DNA of 30,847 nt, taken from positions 1 through 30,847 of the IMG/VR virus record IMGVR_UViG_3300024520_000338. One strand, 5' to 3'. Below, one piece after another: positions 11,551 through 30,847 of the stretch. A program made the translations under genes and the position numbers. The notes under the pieces were generated by a model. That model worked only from the letters and a program-made list of their open reading frames with translations, was not told the DNA's origin and did no database searches. Within the stretch, counting starts at the first letter, position 1, and each line of letters opens with the position of its first letter. This DNA comes from a virus.

Positions 11551-11856
11551 TTAACACTCCCTCATGATTTCTATAGTATCCTCTAGCTCTTGTATCTTGT
11601 CCTTAGCCGTGTTTAACTCTTCTTCGATATCTTCTCTAATATCTATCTCTATTGCTTCTGAAACTGCTTCTAACAGTGTATCGTATGCCTTTTCATCATC
11701 ACCAGTCTGCACCTTAACTAAATCGTGATAAGCTGAGATAACCTTTTTTACAAAGTCGTATGGATCTAACTCTATTTGTAATTGGTCTAGTTGTACTTCT
11801 GAGTTATTAAATGTTACTTCAGGTAATCCTTCTAGTTGTATGCCTACATTCTTCAT
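11551..11856 (-). CDS. Acidic helical early protein, unknown function
   Basis: A 101-residue protein with strong negative charge. Residues 30-70 form amphipathic helices (DPYDFVKKVISAYHDLVKVQ) and the last 35 a coiled coil (EELNTAKDKIQELEDTIEIM). It starts one base after the AbrB-like gene's stop. As an acidic early protein it could be a DNA mimic or a partner of a host protein, but nothing specific supports this. Confidence 0.66.
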   Translation of the reverse strand: MKNVGIQLEGLPEVTFNNSEVQLDQLQIELDPYDFVKKVISAYHDLVKVQTGDDEKAYDTLLEAVSEAIEIDIREDIEEELNTAKDKIQELEDTIEIMREC

Positions 11857-11857
11857 C

Positions 11858-12019
11858 TTATATCTCTACTTTCTCAATAATTATCTTCTTACCTTTAACA
11901 TAGATTAAAACTTCGTCGCCTACCTTTAACCCTGCTACTTCTAATTGGTTAGGATGCAACCCTACTAGTCTGTTATTGTTAACTGATCTTATCTTTTTCT
12001 TTAATGCTAATAATTTCAT
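11858..12019 (-). CDS. AbrB-like DNA-binding protein, first gene of the recombination operon
   Basis: The frame is open to 12052, but AGAGGAGGAACACAT before the ATG at 12019 sets the start, giving 53 residues: MKLLALKKKIRSVNNNRLVG, then LHPNQLEVAGLKVGDEVLIY and a strand ending IIIEKVEI. The pattern fits the SpoVT/AbrB swapped-hairpin fold. It sits behind a strong promoter facing the plus-strand initiator gene, so it is well placed to control this divergent region. No toxin partner is seen. Confidence 0.74.
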   Translation of the reverse strand: MKLLALKKKIRSVNNNRLVGLHPNQLEVAGLKVGDEVLIYVKGKKIIIEKVEI

Positions 12020-12042
12020 ATGTGTTCCTCCTCTGTAATTAC

Positions 12043-12071
12043 ATATTATCATTACTCAAATGTATTGTCAA
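12043..12071 (-). promoter_or_regulatory. Promoter of the recombination operon (TTGACA-17-TAATAT)
   Basis: Minus strand: perfect TTGACA (12071-12066), 17-base spacer, TAATAT (12048-12043), 24 bases before the ATG at 12019. It faces away from the plus-strand promoter at 12078-12106; the two -35 boxes are only 6 bases apart. Confidence 0.85.
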
Positions 12072-12090
12072 GAGGTATTGTCTAACAATA
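12064..12090. promoter_or_regulatory. Possible operator in the divergent promoter region
   Basis: Two copies of tattgtc (12063-12069 and 12076-12082) are 13 bp apart, and attgtctaacaat (12077-12089) is an inverted repeat with 5-bp arms. They overlap both -35 boxes, so one bound protein could switch between the two transcripts. The AbrB-like protein and the initiator are candidates. Confidence 0.45.
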
Positions 12091-12106
12091 TAAAATATGT
12101 TATACT
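12078..12106 (+). promoter_or_regulatory. Promoter of the plus-strand initiator gene (TTGTCT-17-TATACT)
   Basis: TTGTCT (12078-12083), 17-base spacer, TATACT (12101-12106), 20 bases before the ATG at 12127. It is the only well-supported plus-strand promoter in the window. Confidence 0.8.
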
Positions 12107-12126
12107 ATTAATGAAAGGAGGTAGTT

Positions 12127-12741
12127 ATGGACTACTTAATTAATGAAATACCATTTTTCCAAGTGCCTAACGAAATATTTGAATGTGATCTTACTTCTAA
12201 TGAAAAGATTGTTTTTATGTATTTGTGCAGATGTGGTAACAATGGAAAGAAAGCGTTCCCAAGTCAACAGACGATAGCAGACAAATGTTCTATCGGTAAA
12301 TCAACTGCTAAACGCGCAGTAAATGCGTTAGTTGATAATAATTACATTATAAAGGAAAGGAGATTTAAAGAAGGATACAACAAGAGTAACATCTATAGAG
12401 TGAATTATAGTAGGGTCACACAGAACCTACCTAGGGTCACAGTGGACTCAGATAGGGTCACAGTGAACCACTATAAAGAACTAAGTAATAAGAACTATGA
12501 AAAAATAACTAACAACTTACATCTTTTCGAGGAAAACACGCATACTATCTTATTAGCTTTAGAAGAATATACCTTTAATAGATTCGGTAAGCATATTAGA
12601 AAACACGATCCTAATAAAAGTTATGATTGGTTTGAACTAGAATATAGTGAAGACTTAGAAGCAGATTTTGATTCGTTAATAAAATGTTACGATAATTGCA
12701 ATTTAGACTACTTGATAACAGTAGAAAGGAGAATACAATAA
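12127..12741 (+). CDS. Winged-helix replication initiator-like protein, sole plus-strand gene
   Basis: A 204-residue protein. Residues 24-82 form a winged helix of the HTH_36 type (LTSNEKIVFMYLCRCGNNGK, FPSQQTIADKCSIGKSTAKR, VNALVDNNYIIKERR). This domain starts many plasmid and phage replication initiators. Residues 94-114 contain RVT three times at 7-residue spacing, encoded by 21-bp DNA repeats. The C-terminal half is helical and acidic and not recognised. GAAAGGAGGTAGTT is the ribosome site. It could be an initiator with its own origin, or a transcription regulator of the divergent early operon. Repeats inside the gene favour the first view. Confidence 0.72.
   Translation: MDYLINEIPFFQVPNEIFECDLTSNEKIVFMYLCRCGNNGKKAFPSQQTIADKCSIGKSTAKRAVNALVDNNYIIKERRFKEGYNKSNIYRVNYSRVTQNLPRVTVDSDRVTVNHYKELSNKNYEKITNNLHLFEENTHTILLALEEYTFNRFGKHIRKHDPNKSYDWFELEYSEDLEADFDSLIKCYDNCNLDYLITVERRIQ
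12411..12462. repeat. Three iteron-like direct repeats, 21 bp apart, within the initiator gene
   Basis: The 10-mer tagggtcaca occurs at 12411-12420, 12432-12441 and 12453-12462. In the second and third copies identity extends through gtg. Exact 21-bp spacing (two helical turns) places all copies on one DNA face and keeps the frame (RVT every 7 residues). This resembles initiator-binding iterons; origin function is inferred. Confidence 0.65.
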
Positions 12742-12783
12742 AACGAGACTTCGCAAGGAGCTGAACCCTTTAGAAATCTCGTT
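12742..12783. terminator. Hairpin at the end of the initiator gene, possible bidirectional terminator
   Basis: AACGAGA (12742-12748) pairs with TCTCGTT (12777-12783), with a smaller inner stem (AAGG with CCTT). Read on the minus strand it is followed by TTATT, so it could stop read-through into the initiator gene. On the plus strand it directly follows the stop, but the T-run is poor. Confidence 0.45.
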
Positions 12784-12873
12784 CCATAAGCTATTTAGTT
12801 TTTAGTTGGTACATCTTACCCCTAAGACATACGGACTGTTTGACAAATATAAGTTTACCATATAAACGGAAAT
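12784..12873. other. Non-coding stretch, nothing convincing seen
   Basis: No gene with a ribosome site is found on either strand. A plus-strand TTGACA occurs at 12840-12845, with only a poor -10 (TAAACG at 17 bases or TATAAA at 15). It is part of the 370-base gap between the initiator gene and the lysis gene at 13115. Confidence 0.5.
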
Positions 12874-12898
12874 AAAAAAAGAACCTTTTAAGATTCTT
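12874..12898 (-). terminator. Terminator of the second candidate small RNA
   Basis: Minus strand: AAGAATCT pairs with AGGTTCTT over 8 bp (one G-U) around loop TAAA, followed by TTTTTTTATT. The distal arm and T-run are the same as in the terminator at 8202-8224. Confidence 0.8.
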
Positions 12899-12982
12899 TA
12901 GATATATTCAGAAAGCTTGCCGACAAAATCTGAATAGTAGCTCGAGAAGTAGCGTCAGACCATCCTCTTATTAATTTGATTA
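12874..12982 (-). ncRNA. Candidate small non-coding RNA (about 105 nt)
   Basis: On the minus strand an extended -10, TGGTATGAT (hexamer 12993-12988), lies at the upstream end and a strong terminator (12879-12898 plus T-run) at the other. Between them TATTCAGA pairs with TCTGAATA around a 16-base loop (about 12912-12945). No frame of use is present. The end is similar to that of the candidate RNA at 8195-8303, both ending in GGTTCTTTTTTTATT, so the two may share origin or function. The -35 is weak. Confidence 0.5.
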
Positions 12983-13323: not shown

Positions 13324-13779
13324 TTATTTATAATAGTATTTAACTGCGCTATTCCCTTGATGTTTCCATCCGTTACCTTCATTCCATCTTTTAAAACTAG
13401 AACTACCGATATCTAAATGCAACCATAATAGCTTTTTACTATTCTTATCCATGTAAATGCCAATGTTTTTAAATCCAATCCCGACGCAGATTTTAGCTAA
13501 CTGGTCCGCTGCCCAACCTGTGAAATTAAACTTAACATCAACCGCATGTCCTAACAAGTGATTACTGTTACTTGAACCGCCTATTTTCGAGTTGTAAGAG
13601 CTTGTACGATACCCCGAGTTAATATCAGTCGAACCAACAATAACTCTTAGCATATCGAGTTTTTCGAACAATTCTACTTGCTTTGCTTTTATAGCGTTCC
13701 CATCATCTTTATTAGCAAACTCATAAGCCGTAAAGTAATGACCTAGTTTAATTGATTTTAAAATAGTCGTAGCATCCAT
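13324..13779 (-). CDS. Endolysin, M15-family peptidase
   Basis: A 151-residue protein with the M15A (VanY/D-Ala-D-Ala peptidase-like) zinc site: INSGYRTSSYNSKIGG at residues 53-68, then SNHLLGHAVDV giving H74 and D81, and WLHLDIG giving H121. These are the usual H, D and H ligands. It would cut peptide cross-links of peptidoglycan, releasing progeny. There is no wall-binding domain and no signal peptide, so it needs a holin. It starts right after the helix-hairpin-helix gene stop with GGAGTGA upstream, in the lysis cassette. Confidence 0.88.
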   Translation of the reverse strand: MDATTILKSIKLGHYFTAYEFANKDDGNAIKAKQVELFEKLDMLRVIVGSTDINSGYRTSSYNSKIGGSSNSNHLLGHAVDVKFNFTGWAADQLAKICVGIGFKNIGIYMDKNSKKLLWLHLDIGSSSFKRWNEGNGWKHQGNSAVKYYYK

Positions 13780-14037
13780 CTAATCACTCCATTCTTCTTT
13801 AATAGTTTGTAGCCTTTGAACGCCTATCCCTTCAACCTCGACTAACTCTTCTACACTAGCTTCAGGATTTTTTTCAAGATACAACAATATTCTTTTCGCA
13901 AGCACATCGCCAATATCATGCAGTTCAATTAGTTCTTCATACGTAGAATTTTGTATGTCAGGTTTTGAGCCGATTAGAAAGATAAGCGATAAGATTAATA
14001 CTGTCATTATTAACAATAGTAAAAACTTACTTTTCAT
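13780..14037 (-). CDS. Membrane-anchored helix-hairpin-helix (ComEA-like) protein
   Basis: An 85-residue protein. Residues 4-23 (KFLLLLIMTVLILSLIFLIG) are a transmembrane helix or uncleaved signal. Residues 30-85 are a double helix-hairpin-helix: STYEELIELHDIGDVLAKRI and VEELVEVEGIGVQRLQTIKE, each with the IG hairpin turn of ComEA-type DNA-binding modules. ComEA holds incoming DNA at the cell surface in competent bacteria. Here the gene lies between a coiled-coil membrane protein and the endolysin, which is unusual. It may bind DNA at the membrane, or only share the fold. It overlaps the upstream gene by 11 bases. Confidence 0.74.
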   Translation of the reverse strand: MKSKFLLLLIMTVLILSLIFLIGSKPDIQNSTYEELIELHDIGDVLAKRILLYLEKNPEASVEELVEVEGIGVQRLQTIKEEWSD

Positions 14038-14515: not shown

Positions 14516-17500
14516 TTACTCCTTTCCTTCTAAAAAATCTTCTTTTGCTAAGTCGTACCCTTCATCGTTGACTTTCTTTACAGCTTTCGCCTTTTCTTCG
14601 TCACTAGAATTTTGATAATTAGAGCTATTAAACAAAGTTTTTAATCCTTGTTCTGTGTATTCGCCCATTACTTTTTGGAAATCTGATTTTTCCTGAGTTG
14701 TTAATTCGTATTTAACTTTTTTACTTGTTACGTTTTTCACTCTCGCTCTAGGTAAGAAAGACTTCCCAACTTCATTATACAACCTTAACAGTTCATTAGT
14801 CAAAGCGTCGTCTTGCTTCTTAGCAAAGAATCCAGGAGAAAGGAATTGTTGCACTGCGTTTAGTGCGCCTTCGCCATATTTAAGTTCTTCTCCGAATATA
14901 CCACGTTTAGGCGGTAAACTCGTAGTTAAACCAGGTGTTTTAGATTGTGCTTGCGTCTTAAATGTTTTCAATATACTCGAATAGTCTCGCTCTCTTTTCA
15001 CAGGATCAACAGTCCTTGCAATCTGTCCTCCAACAGTAGGTATACCTTGACCAATATAATCTAGAGGTAACTCGAATATTTTCTTAGCAACTCCATCATA
15101 ACCACCGAAGAAATCAGTTATGCCGCTTAACATTGTTTGTTTAAAAATAGTGTCTATACCTGAAGTTACAGCAGTCGCAGTAGCGTCAACTATACCCGAC
15201 TCTTCTTTTTTCATCATTTCTTCAGCAAAAGCAACACCCATAAAGTAAGGGATTGCTGCGGGTTGTGCCCAATCTATCGTGTATGAACCGTTTTTCATAA
15301 CAATCGAATTAGGCAATATACCAGCTCTTGATAGCAAAGCTTCTTCTTCGGGATCTGCTTTGTACTCACCTCTAGCCATTCCGTTAAATGCCATATAAGC
15401 ACCCAATGCTGACAATCCAGCGCCAGTTGTACCTTTAGAGAATATCTCTATTGCTTCCGCAGCTGGTGCGTTACCTGCTATTTTAGCGATACTTTTAACT
15501 ACTCCTATCGGCGAATAGTCAATACCTGTTTGAGCAATGTTTGCAGGTGTCTTACTGAAAGGTATAGCAGCTTCTACTAACAGTCCGTACTGAGACTTTT
15601 TACCTTTTGCGATAATATCAGCTAGTGCGTTCTGTTCTCTAAATGTAGCTTCTTGTGCTCGTCTTAATGCATATGCTACAGCTTCTTGTGTAGGTTCTGT
15701 CATTCCTCTAGCTTGCATAAACCCAGCTAAATCTCTAACAAAGTGTTTTTTAAGGAAAATTATATCTTCTACTTCTAATGTGTCTTTTGAAAATTTACTT
15801 ACTTTCTCTAATGCCTTGTTAGAAAAGTCCTTTAGTTTTTTTGCGCCTGTTGTGATTTTACCATCAGTCTCTTTAAAGTTAACACCAGTATCAAAGATTT
15901 TCTTCTCTGCGAAAGGTGACTTGATTCCGAATATTTCCCAACGAGAGCCTTCTGATAACTCTTTTGTGTGTTCATCCCAATATTTAGTGGCCGTTTTTCT
16001 ATTAGCCTTGTTAGCAAATACTGATTTAGTACGCTCTGCTTGTGGTAAGAATGCTTTTTCTAATACTGCAGCTTCCGTATCAGCAACTTTTTTAACCGCA
16101 GCCATCATGCTATTACCTAATAAGTTTCTAGCGTGAGTCTTAGGATTAGTTAACATTGCAATTCTTCTCCACGAGTCAAATTTTTCACGTCTAGTCGTAG
16201 GTATCCTTTTGGAAATAGATTCGTATAATTCTTCAAACAGTTGTGTTTTCTCTGCGTCCGTTGTTTCTGAAGTGAATTTAGCAACTTTTGCAAGTTCTTC
16301 TTCGCTCAATTCAATTTTTTTCCAACCTTTTTCACCTTTGCCTATCAATTTCTTTTTACGAGGACCGTATCTCTTCAAACCTTGATCGTTAAGCTTCTTA
16401 ATTTCTCTTTCTAAATATTGCAGAACGGTAGCAGGGTCGTTAGCTTCTCTTAAAATCTTAGCAGCTTGCGAATATTGACCAGCTTGCGTTAAAGTTTCTG
16501 CTACGTCAGATAAAACTCTTCTCATTGCGAATAAATCACCTTGAGCCGCAGCTTCGTTAGCTAATAATTTGGCGAGTACAACGTTATCAGGAGTAAACTC
16601 TGTCTTTGTTAAGTCGAAATCTTTTAAAGCTTCTTCGTATCCTTTGTCGAATCTAGCTAAAGCCTTGTCTAAAGTTGTTGCATTAGTTAATTCTGTGTAA
16701 AAATCTGAGTCTTTATCGAAGCTTGCGTTAGCTTCAGGTGCGATAGCTTGATCCGTTCTTATGTTTCTACTGAATCCACGCTCAATCTGACCATCTTTTG
16801 TACGTTTTGCAGTTCCGTCTGCGTTACGTTTAACTGTAGTCTCTATTCCTGGTATTTCAAACGTAGTTACTAAATCATCTTCACCTTCTATTTTAGCAGC
16901 TTGCGGCGACTCTTTACCTGGTGCAAACTCAAACTCATCAATTCTAGCATCATCAGCTGCAGCTTTACGGCTATCTTCTAGCGTTTGTCTAAATACGTTA
17001 GGTTCGGGTTCATCTATTTGGACACCAAACTTTTTAATAGGTTGTGATGCACCTCTACTGTATAAATCATTAGGATCAAACAATATAGAAACTTCATGAG
17101 GGTCTGCGCCTGTTAATTTACCTCCTACGTGTTTATAGCCATCGTACCCTATTTCTTTCAAGTTTATTTGTAACTCGGTTAAAATTTCTTCTGACTCAGA
17201 CTTGGAAACAGCTCCGGACATTTCGTCAGTTATTTTTCTATATAAATCATACCCGGTGTCGCCTTTGTTGTCATTGATAATTGAAGTTATATTAGTGTCA
17301 AACAAATCATCAACAGGCTCTAGAGCTCTCCTATACTCGTTTAAAACTTGTTCGTCAAACGGAACTTCTAAGTCTAACAGTTTAGATCTATCTATACTTG
17401 CTTGATAAATAGTAGGAACTCCACGTCTTTTGGATCTCGCTCTTGCATATCCTCCAGCGATATCTTTAGAATCGGTCAAGTATATACCAGGCCCGAACAA

Positions 17501-18811
17501 ACCCTCTGTATTTGTCAATCTAGGCTCTAAACTCTTCGCTGTTAAACCTTTAGTTCCGCTTCCGTGGTAAACTATATCAAAACCATCTTCGTCTACCCTA
17601 GGGGCTTGTTGTACTATAGGTTTTTCCACAGGGATGTCCACAGTTGTTGATAAGTCTCCATCGATCTTAGCAGGTTCTACTGATTGTTTAAACGGATTAA
17701 CCTCTAACCCTTCTGTTAAAGCTCTGTCTTGTGTTTTAATAGTGTTTAAGCCTAATACATCAGATACCTTACTAGCTTGCGCAGGGTCTAACTGTTTGAT
17801 TCTATTAAGCGCTATCTGTCTACCGTCATCACCTAACTCTTCAATAACTTTCTTTAGATTAGTAACCTCTTTACTCTGAAAAGCTTCTTGGAAACCTTTA
17901 GCATCTGATAGTCTACCGATAACTAGATTTAATCCGATATCAATAGCAGTATTACCTGCAAGATTCCAAAACGTCTCACCTAGATCCTTTTCGCCTTTTA
18001 ATAGTGGTATCCATTCTTGCGGCGCTTGTACAATTCTATCAGCTACTAAATCTACCGCTTGATTAGCTGCGAACTGTGAACCTAGTTTACTAGTTAACCA
18101 CCCGCCAAACTTAGTAGCGCCTAGTGCAGCGTTTACCGCTTGATATTGTGCAGCTGTTCCGAGTATTTTACCACCTACGAAACCTTGTTTAAACTCAGGT
18201 GTTTCTCTAGCTTGTTGTATCAACTCTTCATCTGTGTCGAATACGGTGTCTAAAGGCTTGATTAATTGCTTTCCAAATGGTAAACCTTCTATAACTCCAC
18301 GCCCTCTTACGTTTGCTACAGCTTGTTCGTTCATGAACTCTTGGCTCAACTCTCTTACGCGTTCAGCGTTTCCACCTTGAATAGTAAGTTGTCTGATTTC
18401 CTCTTGTATTCTATCCATGTTTTCTTTAGCTACATTGCGACTTTCTTTCCTGATTTTAGCATCTTCCTGACGTTGTTGTATTTCAGGCTGATTACGGCTT
18501 GCAAACCTTTGACGTTCATTAGTACCCGAACCGCGTTTAATCTCGTCTAAGAACGATTTAGGCTGTTCTACGGGTATCTCTGTGCCTATAGGTTTCCTAG
18601 CAACAGAAGCAACCTTCTCAAAGAAAGAAGGCTCTTGTTGTTGTCGTTGTTGTGCTACTTGTTGTGTTTTCTCAAAGAACGTAGGTTCAAATTGACCGGC
18701 TTCTATGTTTCTAGCTTGTTCTATTGCTGGTCTATCTATGCCACTAAGAGCGCCTAGGAAAGATTTATTTTTAGTTTTCTTCTTGTTTAATTCGTTTAAA
18801 AAACTTGGCAT
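14516..18811 (-). CDS. Giant ejection-type virion protein with ADP-ribosyltransferase-like domain
   Basis: A 1431-residue protein, the largest in the window. The first 95 residues are low complexity and repeat a short motif (PSFLNEL, KSFLGAL, PTFFEKT, PSFFEKV, KSFLDEI). Residues 411-587 look like the ART-PolyVal type of ADP-ribosyltransferase: VYHGSGTKGL (H416), GLFGPGIYLTD (Y444) and PHEVSILFDP (E573), the H-Y-E order. Segments at 881-900 (WRRIAMLTNPKTHARNLLGN) and 1085-1106 (SKTPANIAQTGIDYSP) recur in large polyvalent phage proteins. Hydrophobic helices occur near 1126-1147. Its place after adaptor, nozzle and fibre genes fits an internal virion protein delivered with the DNA. ADP-ribosylation of host targets is inferred. 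Confidence 0.78.
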   Translation of the reverse strand: MPSFLNELNKKKTKNKSFLGALSGIDRPAIEQARNIEAGQFEPTFFEKTQQVAQQRQQQEPSFFEKVASVARKPIGTEIPVEQPKSFLDEIKRGSGTNERQRFASRNQPEIQQRQEDAKIRKESRNVAKENMDRIQEEIRQLTIQGGNAERVRELSQEFMNEQAVANVRGRGVIEGLPFGKQLIKPLDTVFDTDEELIQQARETPEFKQGFVGGKILGTAAQYQAVNAALGATKFGGWLTSKLGSQFAANQAVDLVADRIVQAPQEWIPLLKGEKDLGETFWNLAGNTAIDIGLNLVIGRLSDAKGFQEAFQSKEVTNLKKVIEELGDDGRQIALNRIKQLDPAQASKVSDVLGLNTIKTQDRALTEGLEVNPFKQSVEPAKIDGDLSTTVDIPVEKPIVQQAPRVDEDGFDIVYHGSGTKGLTAKSLEPRLTNTEGLFGPGIYLTDSKDIAGGYARARSKRRGVPTIYQASIDRSKLLDLEVPFDEQVLNEYRRALEPVDDLFDTNITSIINDNKGDTGYDLYRKITDEMSGAVSKSESEEILTELQINLKEIGYDGYKHVGGKLTGADPHEVSILFDPNDLYSRGASQPIKKFGVQIDEPEPNVFRQTLEDSRKAAADDARIDEFEFAPGKESPQAAKIEGEDDLVTTFEIPGIETTVKRNADGTAKRTKDGQIERGFSRNIRTDQAIAPEANASFDKDSDFYTELTNATTLDKALARFDKGYEEALKDFDLTKTEFTPDNVVLAKLLANEAAAQGDLFAMRRVLSDVAETLTQAGQYSQAAKILREANDPATVLQYLEREIKKLNDQGLKRYGPRKKKLIGKGEKGWKKIELSEEELAKVAKFTSETTDAEKTQLFEELYESISKRIPTTRREKFDSWRRIAMLTNPKTHARNLLGNSMMAAVKKVADTEAAVLEKAFLPQAERTKSVFANKANRKTATKYWDEHTKELSEGSRWEIFGIKSPFAEKKIFDTGVNFKETDGKITTGAKKLKDFSNKALEKVSKFSKDTLEVEDIIFLKKHFVRDLAGFMQARGMTEPTQEAVAYALRRAQEATFREQNALADIIAKGKKSQYGLLVEAAIPFSKTPANIAQTGIDYSPIGVVKSIAKIAGNAPAAEAIEIFSKGTTGAGLSALGAYMAFNGMARGEYKADPEEEALLSRAGILPNSIVMKNGSYTIDWAQPAAIPYFMGVAFAEEMMKKEESGIVDATATAVTSGIDTIFKQTMLSGITDFFGGYDGVAKKIFELPLDYIGQGIPTVGGQIARTVDPVKRERDYSSILKTFKTQAQSKTPGLTTSLPPKRGIFGEELKYGEGALNAVQQFLSPGFFAKKQDDALTNELLRLYNEVGKSFLPRARVKNVTSKKVKYELTTQEKSDFQKVMGEYTEQGLKTLFNSSNYQNSSDEEKAKAVKKVNDEGYDLAKEDFLEGKE

Positions 18812-18819
18812 ATTCCCTC

Positions 18820-20178
18820 CTATTGTCCTACGCTAGGATTAATGTTAACCCTTCTTTGTAAATCTATCGGCTCTAATCCGTAAGCATCCATAATAGCATA
18901 CCCTTGTTCAATTGAATATCTACCATCGTTGTTAATCATCCATTCGATGACTGATTGTCTAGTGTTACCACCTTTTTGCTGAATGTATCCTTGTAAATCT
19001 GCATTAACAGCATCATCATTTGGACTCCCATCAGTTGAACTTGCTTGGAAATTAGGATCAACGTATCCTTCAGAAACTCCAAACACTCTAGCTTCTTCAG
19101 CTGTTAACGGTTGACCGTTGTTAATTTTAAATCTTGCATTTGTAGCCAAAGCACTATCAGATAACCCACTAGTACCACCGCCACCACTTGAAACCGTTCT
19201 AGGTTTAGTAGCTCCGGTTTGTACTCCTAAAGCAATTGCTTCTGATTCATTTAACGGAATACCTGCATCCCACTTAGTAAATGCTAAATCTAAAGTAGTT
19301 GCATCTCCTGAAATTTGGTCTTGTACTGCTTGCGCTTCAGATGCTAACAACTGATCTCTACTAAATCTAGCTTCGTCTAGTAAAGCAGCATTAGCAGCTT
19401 CGTTAGCTTGAACGTTTCTAGCAATATCAGCAGCGGTAGCACCTTGTGTTAAAGCAGTTAAGCCAGTACTAAATTGGTCTTGTGCTTGTTGTCTACCAAA
19501 TGCAATGCCTTGTTCTTCTTCCGTTCTAGCGGCGTCTATTCCTGATTGTCTACCTTGTAAACTAGTTTCTAACCCTTGTGCTTGTCTTAACGTTCTTCCG
19601 GTTTGTTGTCCTGAGAAAGGCGAGAATCCAGCTAATCTATTTTGTGCTACTCTAGTCCCTGCTACTGCAGAACCCTTTAAAGCACCGAATCTAGGATCTA
19701 ACGATTCTGCTTGTCTATCAAATTGTGCTTGAGTTCCAGCTAAAGAGCCTTCTAATAGAGTTGTACCTTGTGCTATTTCTGCTTCTTTGGCAGCTTGACT
19801 CTCTCTTCTACGTTCTTCTCGCATTCTGTTAATGATAGATTCAACACTTTCTACTTGCTGAACATTTTTAGGAGCGTTGTTAACCAATGTAGTATCTGCT
19901 AAAACAACCTTTTCTTCTCCTGCAGCTTCTGCTTTTCGTCTTTGTCTTTCTTCAAACTCTCGTTTAGCTCTAGCGTCATACTCTGCTCTAGTCAATCCTG
20001 AGTTACCAACCGTTTGTTCGGTGCTAACAATTGGTGTTATTTTAGGCACAACTGTTACAGTGGTTTGCTTTTTCTTCTTTTTCTTCTTAGCAGCTATTTC
20101 TTTTGTAGCTTCCCCTATTGTTTTAGCAGGGGTTGTTTTCTTTTTATTATCTACGATTCCAATTCTAGCTATTGCCAT
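18820..20178 (-). CDS. Ala/Gln-rich internal virion (ejection-like) protein
   Basis: A 452-residue protein. The N-terminus has seven consecutive lysines (residues 31-37) and a charged coiled coil (YDARAKREFEERQRRKAEAA). The middle (130-295) is Ala/Gln/Gly-rich and helical, typical of podovirus ejection proteins. Two similar segments, KWDAGIPLNESEAIALGV (303-320) and KINNGQPLTAEEARVFGV (351-368), form an internal repeat. The last 60 residues are an unfamiliar small helical domain. Gene order between fibre and giant protein supports a DNA-ejection role. No catalytic residues are seen. Confidence 0.68.
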   Translation of the reverse strand: MAIARIGIVDNKKKTTPAKTIGEATKEIAAKKKKKKKQTTVTVVPKITPIVSTEQTVGNSGLTRAEYDARAKREFEERQRRKAEAAGEEKVVLADTTLVNNAPKNVQQVESVESIINRMREERRRESQAAKEAEIAQGTTLLEGSLAGTQAQFDRQAESLDPRFGALKGSAVAGTRVAQNRLAGFSPFSGQQTGRTLRQAQGLETSLQGRQSGIDAARTEEEQGIAFGRQQAQDQFSTGLTALTQGATAADIARNVQANEAANAALLDEARFSRDQLLASEAQAVQDQISGDATTLDLAFTKWDAGIPLNESEAIALGVQTGATKPRTVSSGGGGTSGLSDSALATNARFKINNGQPLTAEEARVFGVSEGYVDPNFQASSTDGSPNDDAVNADLQGYIQQKGGNTRQSVIEWMINNDGRYSIEQGYAIMDAYGLEPIDLQRRVNINPSVGQ

Positions 20179-23048: not shown

Positions 23049-23990
23049 TTACCACCTCTTTCTTCTGATAGGCGTTTCTACTGCTCTCTTTTGGTTGTTT
23101 GCTAGAGTTGCATTAGCTGCGTCTATACCTATACTAGAATATCTATCACCTACACTATACTTTTTATCAACATTTGCTTTAAGTTTCCCTGCTACACTGT
23201 TGATTAATGAAGTTAAATACTCATCTAGTATGTCTAATTCTGTATCATCTGCTATATTAACGTTATTTTCATCATATTCTAATAGTGTTGGATAAGCTGC
23301 ATACTCAACTTTAAATTCGCCTTCTGTTTCGTAAGGGAATATAATTTTCTTTCCAGCTCTGATATACATTGAAGAAGGATACTCTTCATAAGAGCCATCG
23401 TCTTTTAAAATGTTAACTCTTTCTAACAGATATAAATCACTTGGAGAGTCATATTCTAATTGACTTTCGTAAGATACTGGAAACTCTTTGTATTCAGTGA
23501 ACAACGCAACCCATCTAAAAGGATAGTCGTATGTGCCTGAAAATCTAAGTCTAAGCTGATTAGCGTCATCTGCCTTAGTAACATTGCCTTTATACAATAC
23601 ATAACCGTCACCGACAGTATGAGCGTGTACAATAGCATCTATGAGTGTCCATACGCTAGGTGCAGTCTCTTCTTCTATATAAACCGTACCACTACCACCT
23701 ATTTGTAATGAATAAGCTCTTGCTGCTCCTAATTCGAATGTTATATCAGTTCCTTCGAAGTCGTATTCTTCCCACGATCCACCTAAACCATTTTTAGGGT
23801 TCTTTTGAGCTATTAAATATGATTCTTTCTTGCTCTTAGTAACAGTAACTAAGTATGTTAACTCTTGATTAGTGAAATCTGTAATCGATAGAATGTAGTC
23901 TTGTTTTGATGCTTCAGAAGTTAACGCACCACTAGCAGACCACTCACCAATTTCCATGATTGTGTTTCTTTTAAAATCTTTAAATAACAT
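23049..23990 (-). CDS. Head-to-tail adaptor-like protein (T7 gp11 type by position)
   Basis: A 313-residue protein. The N-terminal two thirds are beta-rich, and the C-terminal part (YEYDENNVNI-like acidic strand, then LDILDEYLTSLINSVAGKLK and a basic end ETPIRRKRW) is helical. Its size and place, directly before the nozzle-like gene, suggest an adaptor between portal and nozzle. AAGGAGGTAACTG precedes ATG, and a strong promoter sits upstream. A later in-frame ATG (MEIGEW) exists but has no good ribosome site. Function is from context. Confidence 0.58.
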   Translation of the reverse strand: MLFKDFKRNTIMEIGEWSASGALTSEASKQDYILSITDFTNQELTYLVTVTKSKKESYLIAQKNPKNGLGGSWEEYDFEGTDITFELGAARAYSLQIGGSGTVYIEEETAPSVWTLIDAIVHAHTVGDGYVLYKGNVTKADDANQLRLRFSGTYDYPFRWVALFTEYKEFPVSYESQLEYDSPSDLYLLERVNILKDDGSYEEYPSSMYIRAGKKIIFPYETEGEFKVEYAAYPTLLEYDENNVNIADDTELDILDEYLTSLINSVAGKLKANVDKKYSVGDRYSSIGIDAANATLANNQKRAVETPIRRKRW

Positions 23991-29437: not shown

Positions 29438-30847
29438 TTAGACTGGAACGTTCGGTAATACGTCTTGTGTTGATGGTAACGATGGATCTTGTGCGTCTGT
29501 AACTGGTGCTACTGCTGCAGCTTTTTCTTTTAATCTCTTCAAAAGCTTTTGTCTGTTAGGAATCTTACCTTCAGGTTGTTCTTCTAACCACTCTACATGG
29601 TCTAATATGCCTGCTTGTAACATGCTATCTAGTGTTTGGATAAGATTGTTCTCTGACCAATAACTAGAGTCTCCTACCTCAATTACGGGCGGTTTGTACA
29701 TCTTCTTAAGTTTAGCAAAATCATAAGTACCCAATACCATTTCGCCTTCTTCTTCGATTAATACCGGACGTTCACCATAAAGGTTTTCAGCCATATTCTT
29801 ATAAATACGTGCGATACCTTCAACCCAATCATGGCTATTTAGCTTTGGTACTTCAATAGGAATAGCTGCTTGTGTAGATGCTGCTACAATAGAAGCTCCT
29901 GAAGCTTGTTCGGGGTTAACATTACCTGTGATTGCATCTGTTAACGATACTACATCTTTAATATAAGAATAAGCTAGATCAATCATAGCTATTACTTTAT
30001 CACTCATATTACCAGGTGTTTTATACTTTCCTGCGTCATCAACTGATTGGCCTTGTTTAAGATCCAATCCAACTTGTGTAGATACATCTGCTGTAATTCC
30101 TTCAGGTAACACGTTAGTATCATAGAAGAACTTAGCAAAAGCAGTATCCATTGTGTGTTTCATTGCCATTGCAAAACCTTGATTAATAAATATCTGTGCA
30201 GGTACAACACCTTTAACGAACGTTTGACCGTGGTATGTATTCTTTTGTTCAATCCAGTTACCCAATTCACAAGGATACACATTAAAGCCCAATGGTCTAT
30301 CTTTCCAAATGTAAGTATTCTCTGTACATTTTGTAGAGTAAACCCATTCTTCAGTAACCTCTTTAGTCATTGGCTCACCGTCTGAGTCTAACTCAGGGTT
30401 ACCTTCTGCATCTAGTAAAGGTTCTTCTCTTGTTTCTTCTTTTTTATAGTAAGTTACAACCCAAGTGGCAGAACCGGTTTCTTTTCCATCATCTGAAAGT
30501 ATAGGTTGTATCTCTTCGTCTCCAAAGTCTCCTATTTGTGTTTCGGTGTCTCCATCTTCAATAATAGTAGATGAGTCTTTATCACTCATAAACTGCTCGC
30601 GTTCATCGTTTAATACTGAAACAAACGATCTACCATCATATTGAATATACTTTTGTGGTTGTACTTCTCTGTCAGTAGGATCAGCTACATAGAAATTAGT
30701 TGCATCTATTAACGACATATCAATCTGGCCTATTTCATCACCGTAAGCACCGTCATAAGGCTTCTTATCGCTAAATGTAAGGTGTGCAATGTAATCCCCT
30801 GTGATAGTACCATCCTTTAACGCTTGTCTATACTCCTTAGAAAACTT
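29438..30847 (-). CDS. Portal protein, 5-prime partial
   Basis: The frame is open to the right edge, giving 469 residues without a certain start. An ATG at 30718 is internal: the upstream codons (LTFSDKKPYDGAYGDEIGQI before it) read on smoothly. Features are helical regions around WVEGIARIYKNMAENLYGER and TDAITGNVNPEQASGASIVA, similar to portal proteins with long helices, and a Pro-rich C-terminus ending QDVLPNVPV. It sits before scaffold and capsid, the portal position. As a dodecamer it would be the DNA gate. The terminase is likely beyond the right edge. Confidence 0.75.
   Translation of the reverse strand, partial: KFSKEYRQALKDGTITGDYIAHLTFSDKKPYDGAYGDEIGQIDMSLIDATNFYVADPTDREVQPQKYIQYDGRSFVSVLNDEREQFMSDKDSSTIIEDGDTETQIGDFGDEEIQPILSDDGKETGSATWVVTYYKKEETREEPLLDAEGNPELDSDGEPMTKEVTEEWVYSTKCTENTYIWKDRPLGFNVYPCELGNWIEQKNTYHGQTFVKGVVPAQIFINQGFAMAMKHTMDTAFAKFFYDTNVLPEGITADVSTQVGLDLKQGQSVDDAGKYKTPGNMSDKVIAMIDLAYSYIKDVVSLTDAITGNVNPEQASGASIVAASTQAAIPIEVPKLNSHDWVEGIARIYKNMAENLYGERPVLIEEEGEMVLGTYDFAKLKKMYKPPVIEVGDSSYWSENNLIQTLDSMLQAGILDHVEWLEEQPEGKIPNRQKLLKRLKEKAAAVAPVTDAQDPSLPSTQDVLPNVPV

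Follow-up and report, generated by a model that had tools for sequence, protein, structure and literature searches.

The probable ejection protein gene and its layout

The IMG/VR virus record IMGVR_UViG_3300024520_000338 (30,847 bases, analyzed at its full length and referred to here as the window; the virus is known as an assembled sequence record alone) holds nearly all of its genes on the minus strand. One of them, an open reading frame (ORF) with an ATG start and the sequence AGGAGG 6 bases upstream, encodes a protein of 1431 amino acids (aa) that most likely joins an ADP-ribosyltransferase (ART) domain to a C-terminal half related to internal virion protein D (gp16) of T7-like phages. The features assigned to this gene are as follows.

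14516..18811, minus strand: predicted gp16-type ejection protein (internal virion protein D-like) with an ART domain, 1431 aa (ORF, ribosome-binding site, C-terminal homology)
17906..18199, minus strand: moderately hydrophobic stretch near the N terminus, residues ~205-302, candidate equivalent of membrane region I of gp16 (hydropathy only, weak)
17051..17581, minus strand: predicted ART domain, residues 411-587, with H416, Y444, Y455 and the candidate third residue E573, which follows H572 (PF18760, profile against the Protein Data Bank, relatives)
14540..16579, minus strand: conserved C-terminal module, residues 745-1424, common to the giant proteins of L007-L010 and to podovirus ctQWt234 (BLASTP)
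16124..16147, minus strand: NPKTHARN, residues 889-896, the best-conserved short motif in the C-terminal module (alignments)
14765..15688, minus strand: stretch matched directly by the profile of T7-like internal virion protein D, residues 1042-1349 (E 4.8e-18)

The N-terminal hydrophobic region therefore precedes the ART domain (residues ~205-302 and 411-587, respectively), and hydropathy indicates a second hydrophobic region at ~1085-1260, within the conserved C-terminal half. The ART domain is the only recognizable enzymatic domain of the protein, which thus does not show the several unrelated catalytic domains per chain typical of polyvalent proteins.

Homology of the C-terminal half to internal virion protein D

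Four IMG/VR viruses, namely L007 (2367+ aa) and L008 (2416 aa), whose proteins are near-copies, L009 (3611 aa) and L010 (1685 aa), encode giant proteins that have residues 745-1424 in common with the window protein. These relatives came only from alignment-based scans; single-sequence IMG/VR scans with the whole protein, the ART domain alone or the portal recovered none. In BLASTP the module matches L008 (E 2e-48), L009 (5e-36), L010 (2e-18) and UOF82117 (1e-13), and it is present in a 1121-residue protein of podovirus ctQWt234 that is encoded, as in the window, between a helical protein and an endolysin. A protein from a Bordetella bronchiseptica phage-like plasmid connects the module with proteins annotated as internal virion protein D in many T7-like phages. 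The annotation of a Bordetella phage-like plasmid divides the gp16-type protein between two ORFs that overlap (L003:9938-11776 and 11767-12915), the second of which matches the conserved module and the first, weakly, its start, suggestive of a split gene or a frameshift.

To avoid circularity, the window protein and the giant proteins related to it were kept out of an independent profile, which was made from the Bordetella sequence plus seven internal virion proteins (ProddE, P60, Syn5, P-SSP7, CRP-114, jiawei and HTVC304P). This profile matches the window protein with an E-value of 4.8e-18 (1112 sequences), best over residues 1042-1349, where the best of 1000 shuffled proteins reached 0.49 and the reversed and shuffled controls gave nothing lower. 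The converse profile recovers the internal virion proteins of Syn5, P-SSP7, P60, ProddE, CRP-114 and jiawei (E 1e-13 to 1e-30), and for Syn5 and ProddE that region also falls under PHROG 6651 ('internal virion protein'). Two results weigh against this relationship: T7 gp16 itself gave no significant direct match, and an AlphaFold model of the C-terminal half (five sequences) was poor and mostly helical, with a predicted local distance difference test score (pLDDT) of 41.4. The C-terminal profile found no solved structure related by sequence, and a scan of the genome collection with the C-terminal alignment yielded nothing that could be confirmed. A weak match to MT837118 was dropped, the frame at that locus being full of stops as read, and a MuF fusion or an N4-type virion RNA polymerase was rejected for want of any family match in the window protein.

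The window protein is thus very probably a packaged protein of the gp16 type, judged from its sequence. The preliminary description had argued for an ejection-type virion protein from the gene neighborhood; that claim now stands on firmer ground, since packaging is supported, beyond the neighborhood, by the homology between the C-terminal half and internal virion protein D. The window protein resembles the T7-like internal virion protein D/gp16 family (Syn5 gp45, P-SSP7 gp16, PHROG 6651) in this half, in its similar size and in its place among tail and ejection genes, but T7 gp16 has an N-terminal transglycosylase and most family members examined, unlike the window protein, show no ART.

The predicted ADP-ribosyltransferase domain

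An ART domain of the ART-PolyVal type at residues ~411-587 had been proposed from three motifs, and these lie where they were placed: VYHGSG at 414-419 (H416), GPGIYLTD at 440-447 (Y444) and HEVSILFD at 572-579 (E573). Pfam matches, a profile match to solved structures and homologous phage domains bear the proposal out. The best Pfam match, over residues 413-582, is to ART-PolyVal (PF18760), with an E-value of 3.1e-4 for the whole protein and 3.7e-6 for the domain alone; DUF3990 is second (2.7e-4). ART-PolyVal is also matched by six of the seven domains gathered by homology, the best at 3.2e-11.

Only the block from the catalytic histidine to the tyrosine was informative against solved structures. 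A profile of this block from eight homologous domains, run against all solved structures (E <= 10), found 29 sequences, 28 of them ARTs (PARP16, tankyrase-1, tankyrase-2 and a PE-like toxin). These align on the catalytic His and Tyr, with H416 falling on the His block of PARP16 and tankyrase; the individual E-values are weak (0.04-1.1), and the weight of the result lies in its consistency. The full-length ART profile gave many spurious matches, glycogen phosphorylase among them, in its variable middle, and a single-sequence search of solved structures returned noise. H416 has the YHGS/T pattern of the first core strand, and Y444 the pattern G-x-G-[IV]-Y-x-[TA].

Against the assignment stand a PF18760 score of 28.2 bits, ~3 bits short of the curated gathering cut-off of 31.2, and an AlphaFold model of the ART region (seven sequences) with a mean pLDDT of 45.5, too poor to use. 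The domain is therefore labeled ART-PolyVal-like and not a member of the family, and because the model could not be used its fold is inferred from sequence; on that basis residues ~411-587 are very likely to adopt an ART fold. A chance order of motifs is excluded by the profile matches, and membership of the Alt/VIP2 (R-S-E) clade was rejected, as H and Y replace R and S.

ART-PolyVal (Tox-ART-HYD2), whose prototype is the virion RNA polymerase of Roseovarius Plymouth podovirus 1, resembles the window domain in its H and Y motifs, in the overall domain, in its giant phage carrier and in its predicted co-injection (PMC5512222). The window domain differs in having E and not D at the third position and a longer middle (170 residues aligned to 122 profile positions), and its carrier has an internal virion protein D half in place of an N4 virion RNA polymerase or MuF.

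Relatives of the domain and exchange of modules

The same ART domain was found in other large phage proteins, those of L025, L026, L027 and L009 (two copies in the last). The nearest full-length relative (31% over 172 aa, E 1e-14) lies at residues 398-560, the same place as in the window protein, of a 1851-residue protein (L025:1096-6651) whose podovirus-like contig was binned with a Candidatus Falkowbacteria genome. The C-terminal half of this protein is of another type, with no match to the internal virion protein D profile, and an ART search of 380 genomes of the same phylum gave one weak extra match. A stand-alone ART-like Nocardia plasmid protein (L004:5959-6951) is also closely related to the window domain but has Leu at the third catalytic position and is possibly inactive.

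Other parts of the window protein had been said to recall polyvalent-protein segments, and the relatives agree with this: the window, L008, L009, L010 and ctQWt234 share the C-terminal half but differ in the middle. The middle holds two ARTs and LPD23 in L009 and a ddrB-ParB in L010, with no module recognized in L008 and ctQWt234. The 3611-residue L009 protein (L009:90-10925) additionally carries two zincin-like motifs (HEFTH and HEIQH) ahead of its gp16-type C-terminal half, and the ddrB-like ParB in the middle of the L010 protein (L010:4725-9782) matches Pfam PF18763 above cut-off (E 1.1e-7).

As in the window, an ART-like module comes before the gp16-type region in L009 and again in two cultured cyanophages, the Synechococcus phages P60 (gp34; L012:1512-6431, residues ~394-548) and S-CBP42 (L037:1026-4543). 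The P60 internal virion protein gives a weak, collinear two-block match to the ART profile (residues 388-441 and 489-548), and the Pfam families matched by this stretch are ARTs only, both under cut-off (Exotox-A_cataly and PARP). S-CBP42 is the only close relative of the P60 module in the phage collection (64% identity, with H, Y and E kept), and a profile of the two found 12 solved structures, all ARTs (E 0.14-1.5). Compared with the window domain the module scores an hhalign probability of 29%, being too divergent for a firm direct match. These phages thus resemble the window in that an ART-like module, in which H, Y and E are present, precedes a gp16-type C-terminal half; their hosts are cyanobacterial. 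In the literature searched, no report of an ART in an internal virion protein, those of P60 and S-CBP42 included, was found.

Catalytic residues, activity and substrate

The H-Y-E order proposed for the domain holds for its first two residues, H416 and Y444 being well supported, but E573 is weaker than was stated, and the published polyvalent-protein ARTs are H-Y-D (Tox-ART-HYD2 clade; PMC5512222). In the alignment, the E573 column has E in the window and L027, D in the first domain of L009, N in L025 and in the second domain of L009, and L in the Nocardia protein, so that H416 and Y444 can be regarded as secure and E573 not; H572 is kept in L025, L027 and the Nocardia protein. E573 remains a reasonable candidate, on alignment grounds, for the third catalytic residue. 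The Asn and Leu in the two closest relatives, L025 and the Nocardia plasmid protein, nevertheless count against an active enzyme, since with E573 not conserved there activity may have been lost or may rely on another residue.

This variation of the third active-site position is what would be expected if the ART fold were kept without enzyme activity, either for binding NAD+ or a partner or as a relic, and the domain served ejection or structure only. Some PARP-fold domains are inactive. Such a role nevertheless appears rather unlikely, given that H416, Y444 and the GPGIYLTD...GGYA block show high conservation, that the window and L027 keep HEV, and that H, Y and E are all retained between P60 and S-CBP42, which share 64% identity overall, a pattern that would fit enzymes. 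Whether the window domain is an active host-modifying enzyme is, from its sequence, an evenly balanced matter.

If it is active and delivered, its substrate could be nucleic acid, a small signaling nucleotide or NAD+ (for example, in blunting NAD+-based defence) instead of proteins. Phage and host ARTs do act on DNA, RNA and NAD+ besides proteins (PMC9503650), and the giant-protein relatives carry DNA-directed modules such as ddrB-ParB, but the nearest fold matches with known function are protein-modifying PARPs and the PE-like toxin, and Iyer et al. argue for protein targets in this clade (PMC5512222); a non-protein substrate is accordingly given a small probability.

Genome context and host

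The genes that bear on the type of virus and on the timing of expression are as follows.

29438..30718, minus strand: P22-like portal protein (Pfam PF16510 E 3.4e-9, above cut-off; phrog_156 E 8.7e-12)
23049..23990, minus strand: putative head-tail adaptor, SU10-like (Pfam PF24175 E 0.01, under cut-off)
18820..20178, minus strand: 452-aa protein, candidate second ejection protein (position only; directly upstream of the 1431-aa gene)
13324..13779, minus strand: M15 peptidase endolysin, downstream lysis gene (Pfam PF08291 E 1.6e-13; phrog_894 E 1.1e-19)

The order adaptor, tail, fiber-like, helical protein, giant protein and endolysin is that of podovirus ctQWt234. The 452-aa protein, for which no family match was found, occupies the slot of the ctQWt234 four-helix-bundle protein and of the 386-aa protein encoded just before the giant gene in L008. 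With a P22-like portal, an SU10-type adaptor match and no tape-measure or sheath gene recognized in the window, the virus is podovirus-like, as had been described. A Gram-positive host is plausible because AGGAGG-type sites precede most genes and ERF, DUF1351 and DnaD-like genes are present. A gene at 13780-14037, flanked by those for a small membrane protein and the endolysin, encodes a short helix-hairpin-helix protein (ComEA-like) with a hydrophobic N-terminal stretch, which is odd for a lysis cassette.

The late position of the giant gene beside lysis genes, together with the existence of stand-alone ART relatives outside virion proteins (Nocardia P0003 and L032), would fit a late-made protein that is not injected and acts in the producing cell, in assembly, lysis timing or the exclusion of other phages. 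This is improbable, as the ART shares its polypeptide with a half of the internal virion protein D type, a class that leaves the virion with the DNA (PMC8954989).

Proposed delivery of the ART domain

It is proposed, with about even chances of being right, that the window protein is a gp16-type pilot protein that carries the ART into the cell with the DNA and modifies the host early in infection. A few copies would sit above the portal inside the head, exit ahead of the DNA or together with it, and, like T7 gp16, insert in the cell membrane and help to draw the DNA in. The ART, displayed or released inside the cell, would then use host NAD+ via H416 and Y444, and host macromolecules, most likely proteins, would be mono-ADP-ribosylated in the first minutes of infection. 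Injection has been predicted for polyvalent ARTs (PMC5512222; PMC9503650).

In T7 gp16 an N-terminal transglycosylase lies outside, and after it two membrane regions (I, 243-410; II, 1119-1290) flank a DNA-binding part in the cytoplasm (411-1118; PMC8954989). If this topology is conserved the window ART would be cytoplasmic, because it lies between the first and second hydrophobic regions, which corresponds to the cytoplasm-facing part of T7 gp16, and by this analogy cytoplasmic delivery is somewhat favored. Several points weigh against such placement: the window protein shows only a weak first hydrophobic region, which makes the sidedness conjectural, the known enzyme domain of T7 gp16 sits on the outer side, and the geometry by which T7 crosses the envelope would not transfer directly to a Gram-positive host. 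The first two of these would suit a delivered ART that stays outside the cell membrane, acting on the envelope or not at all (PMC8954989), which is nevertheless considered quite unlikely, as ARTs require NAD+, a cytoplasmic metabolite, and the window ART comes after, not before, the N-terminal hydrophobic region.

T4 Alt, to which the window protein had been likened, is an ART that is packaged in the head, injected and active in the first moments of infection. The comparison is apt as one of functional analogues but does not extend to kinship, since Alt is a separate myovirus head protein outside the DNA-ejection machine and belongs to the R-S-E clade, whereas the window domain belongs to the H-Y clade (PMC5512222).

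A broader and distinctly tentative proposal is that podovirus gp16-type pilot proteins, those of P60 and S-CBP42 too, have repeatedly taken up ARTs between their membrane regions, so that the ejection machine might itself hold an ADP-ribosylating enzyme where the channel opens into the cell, modifying host factors before phage transcription. ARTs were found in only 3% of podoviruses in a 2022 survey (PMC9503650), and internal virion or ejection proteins go unmentioned in PMC5512222.

Injected phage ARTs are already known from T4 Alt and have been predicted for polyvalent proteins. An ART joined to a gp16-type ejection protein would connect such DNA-delivered effectors with the DNA ejectosome, and effects of ejection proteins on the host beyond DNA entry become directly testable in the cultured phages P60 and S-CBP42, which matter here because the window virus is a sequence record only. 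If the proposal is true, the machine that delivers phage DNA may also carry a host-disabling enzyme.

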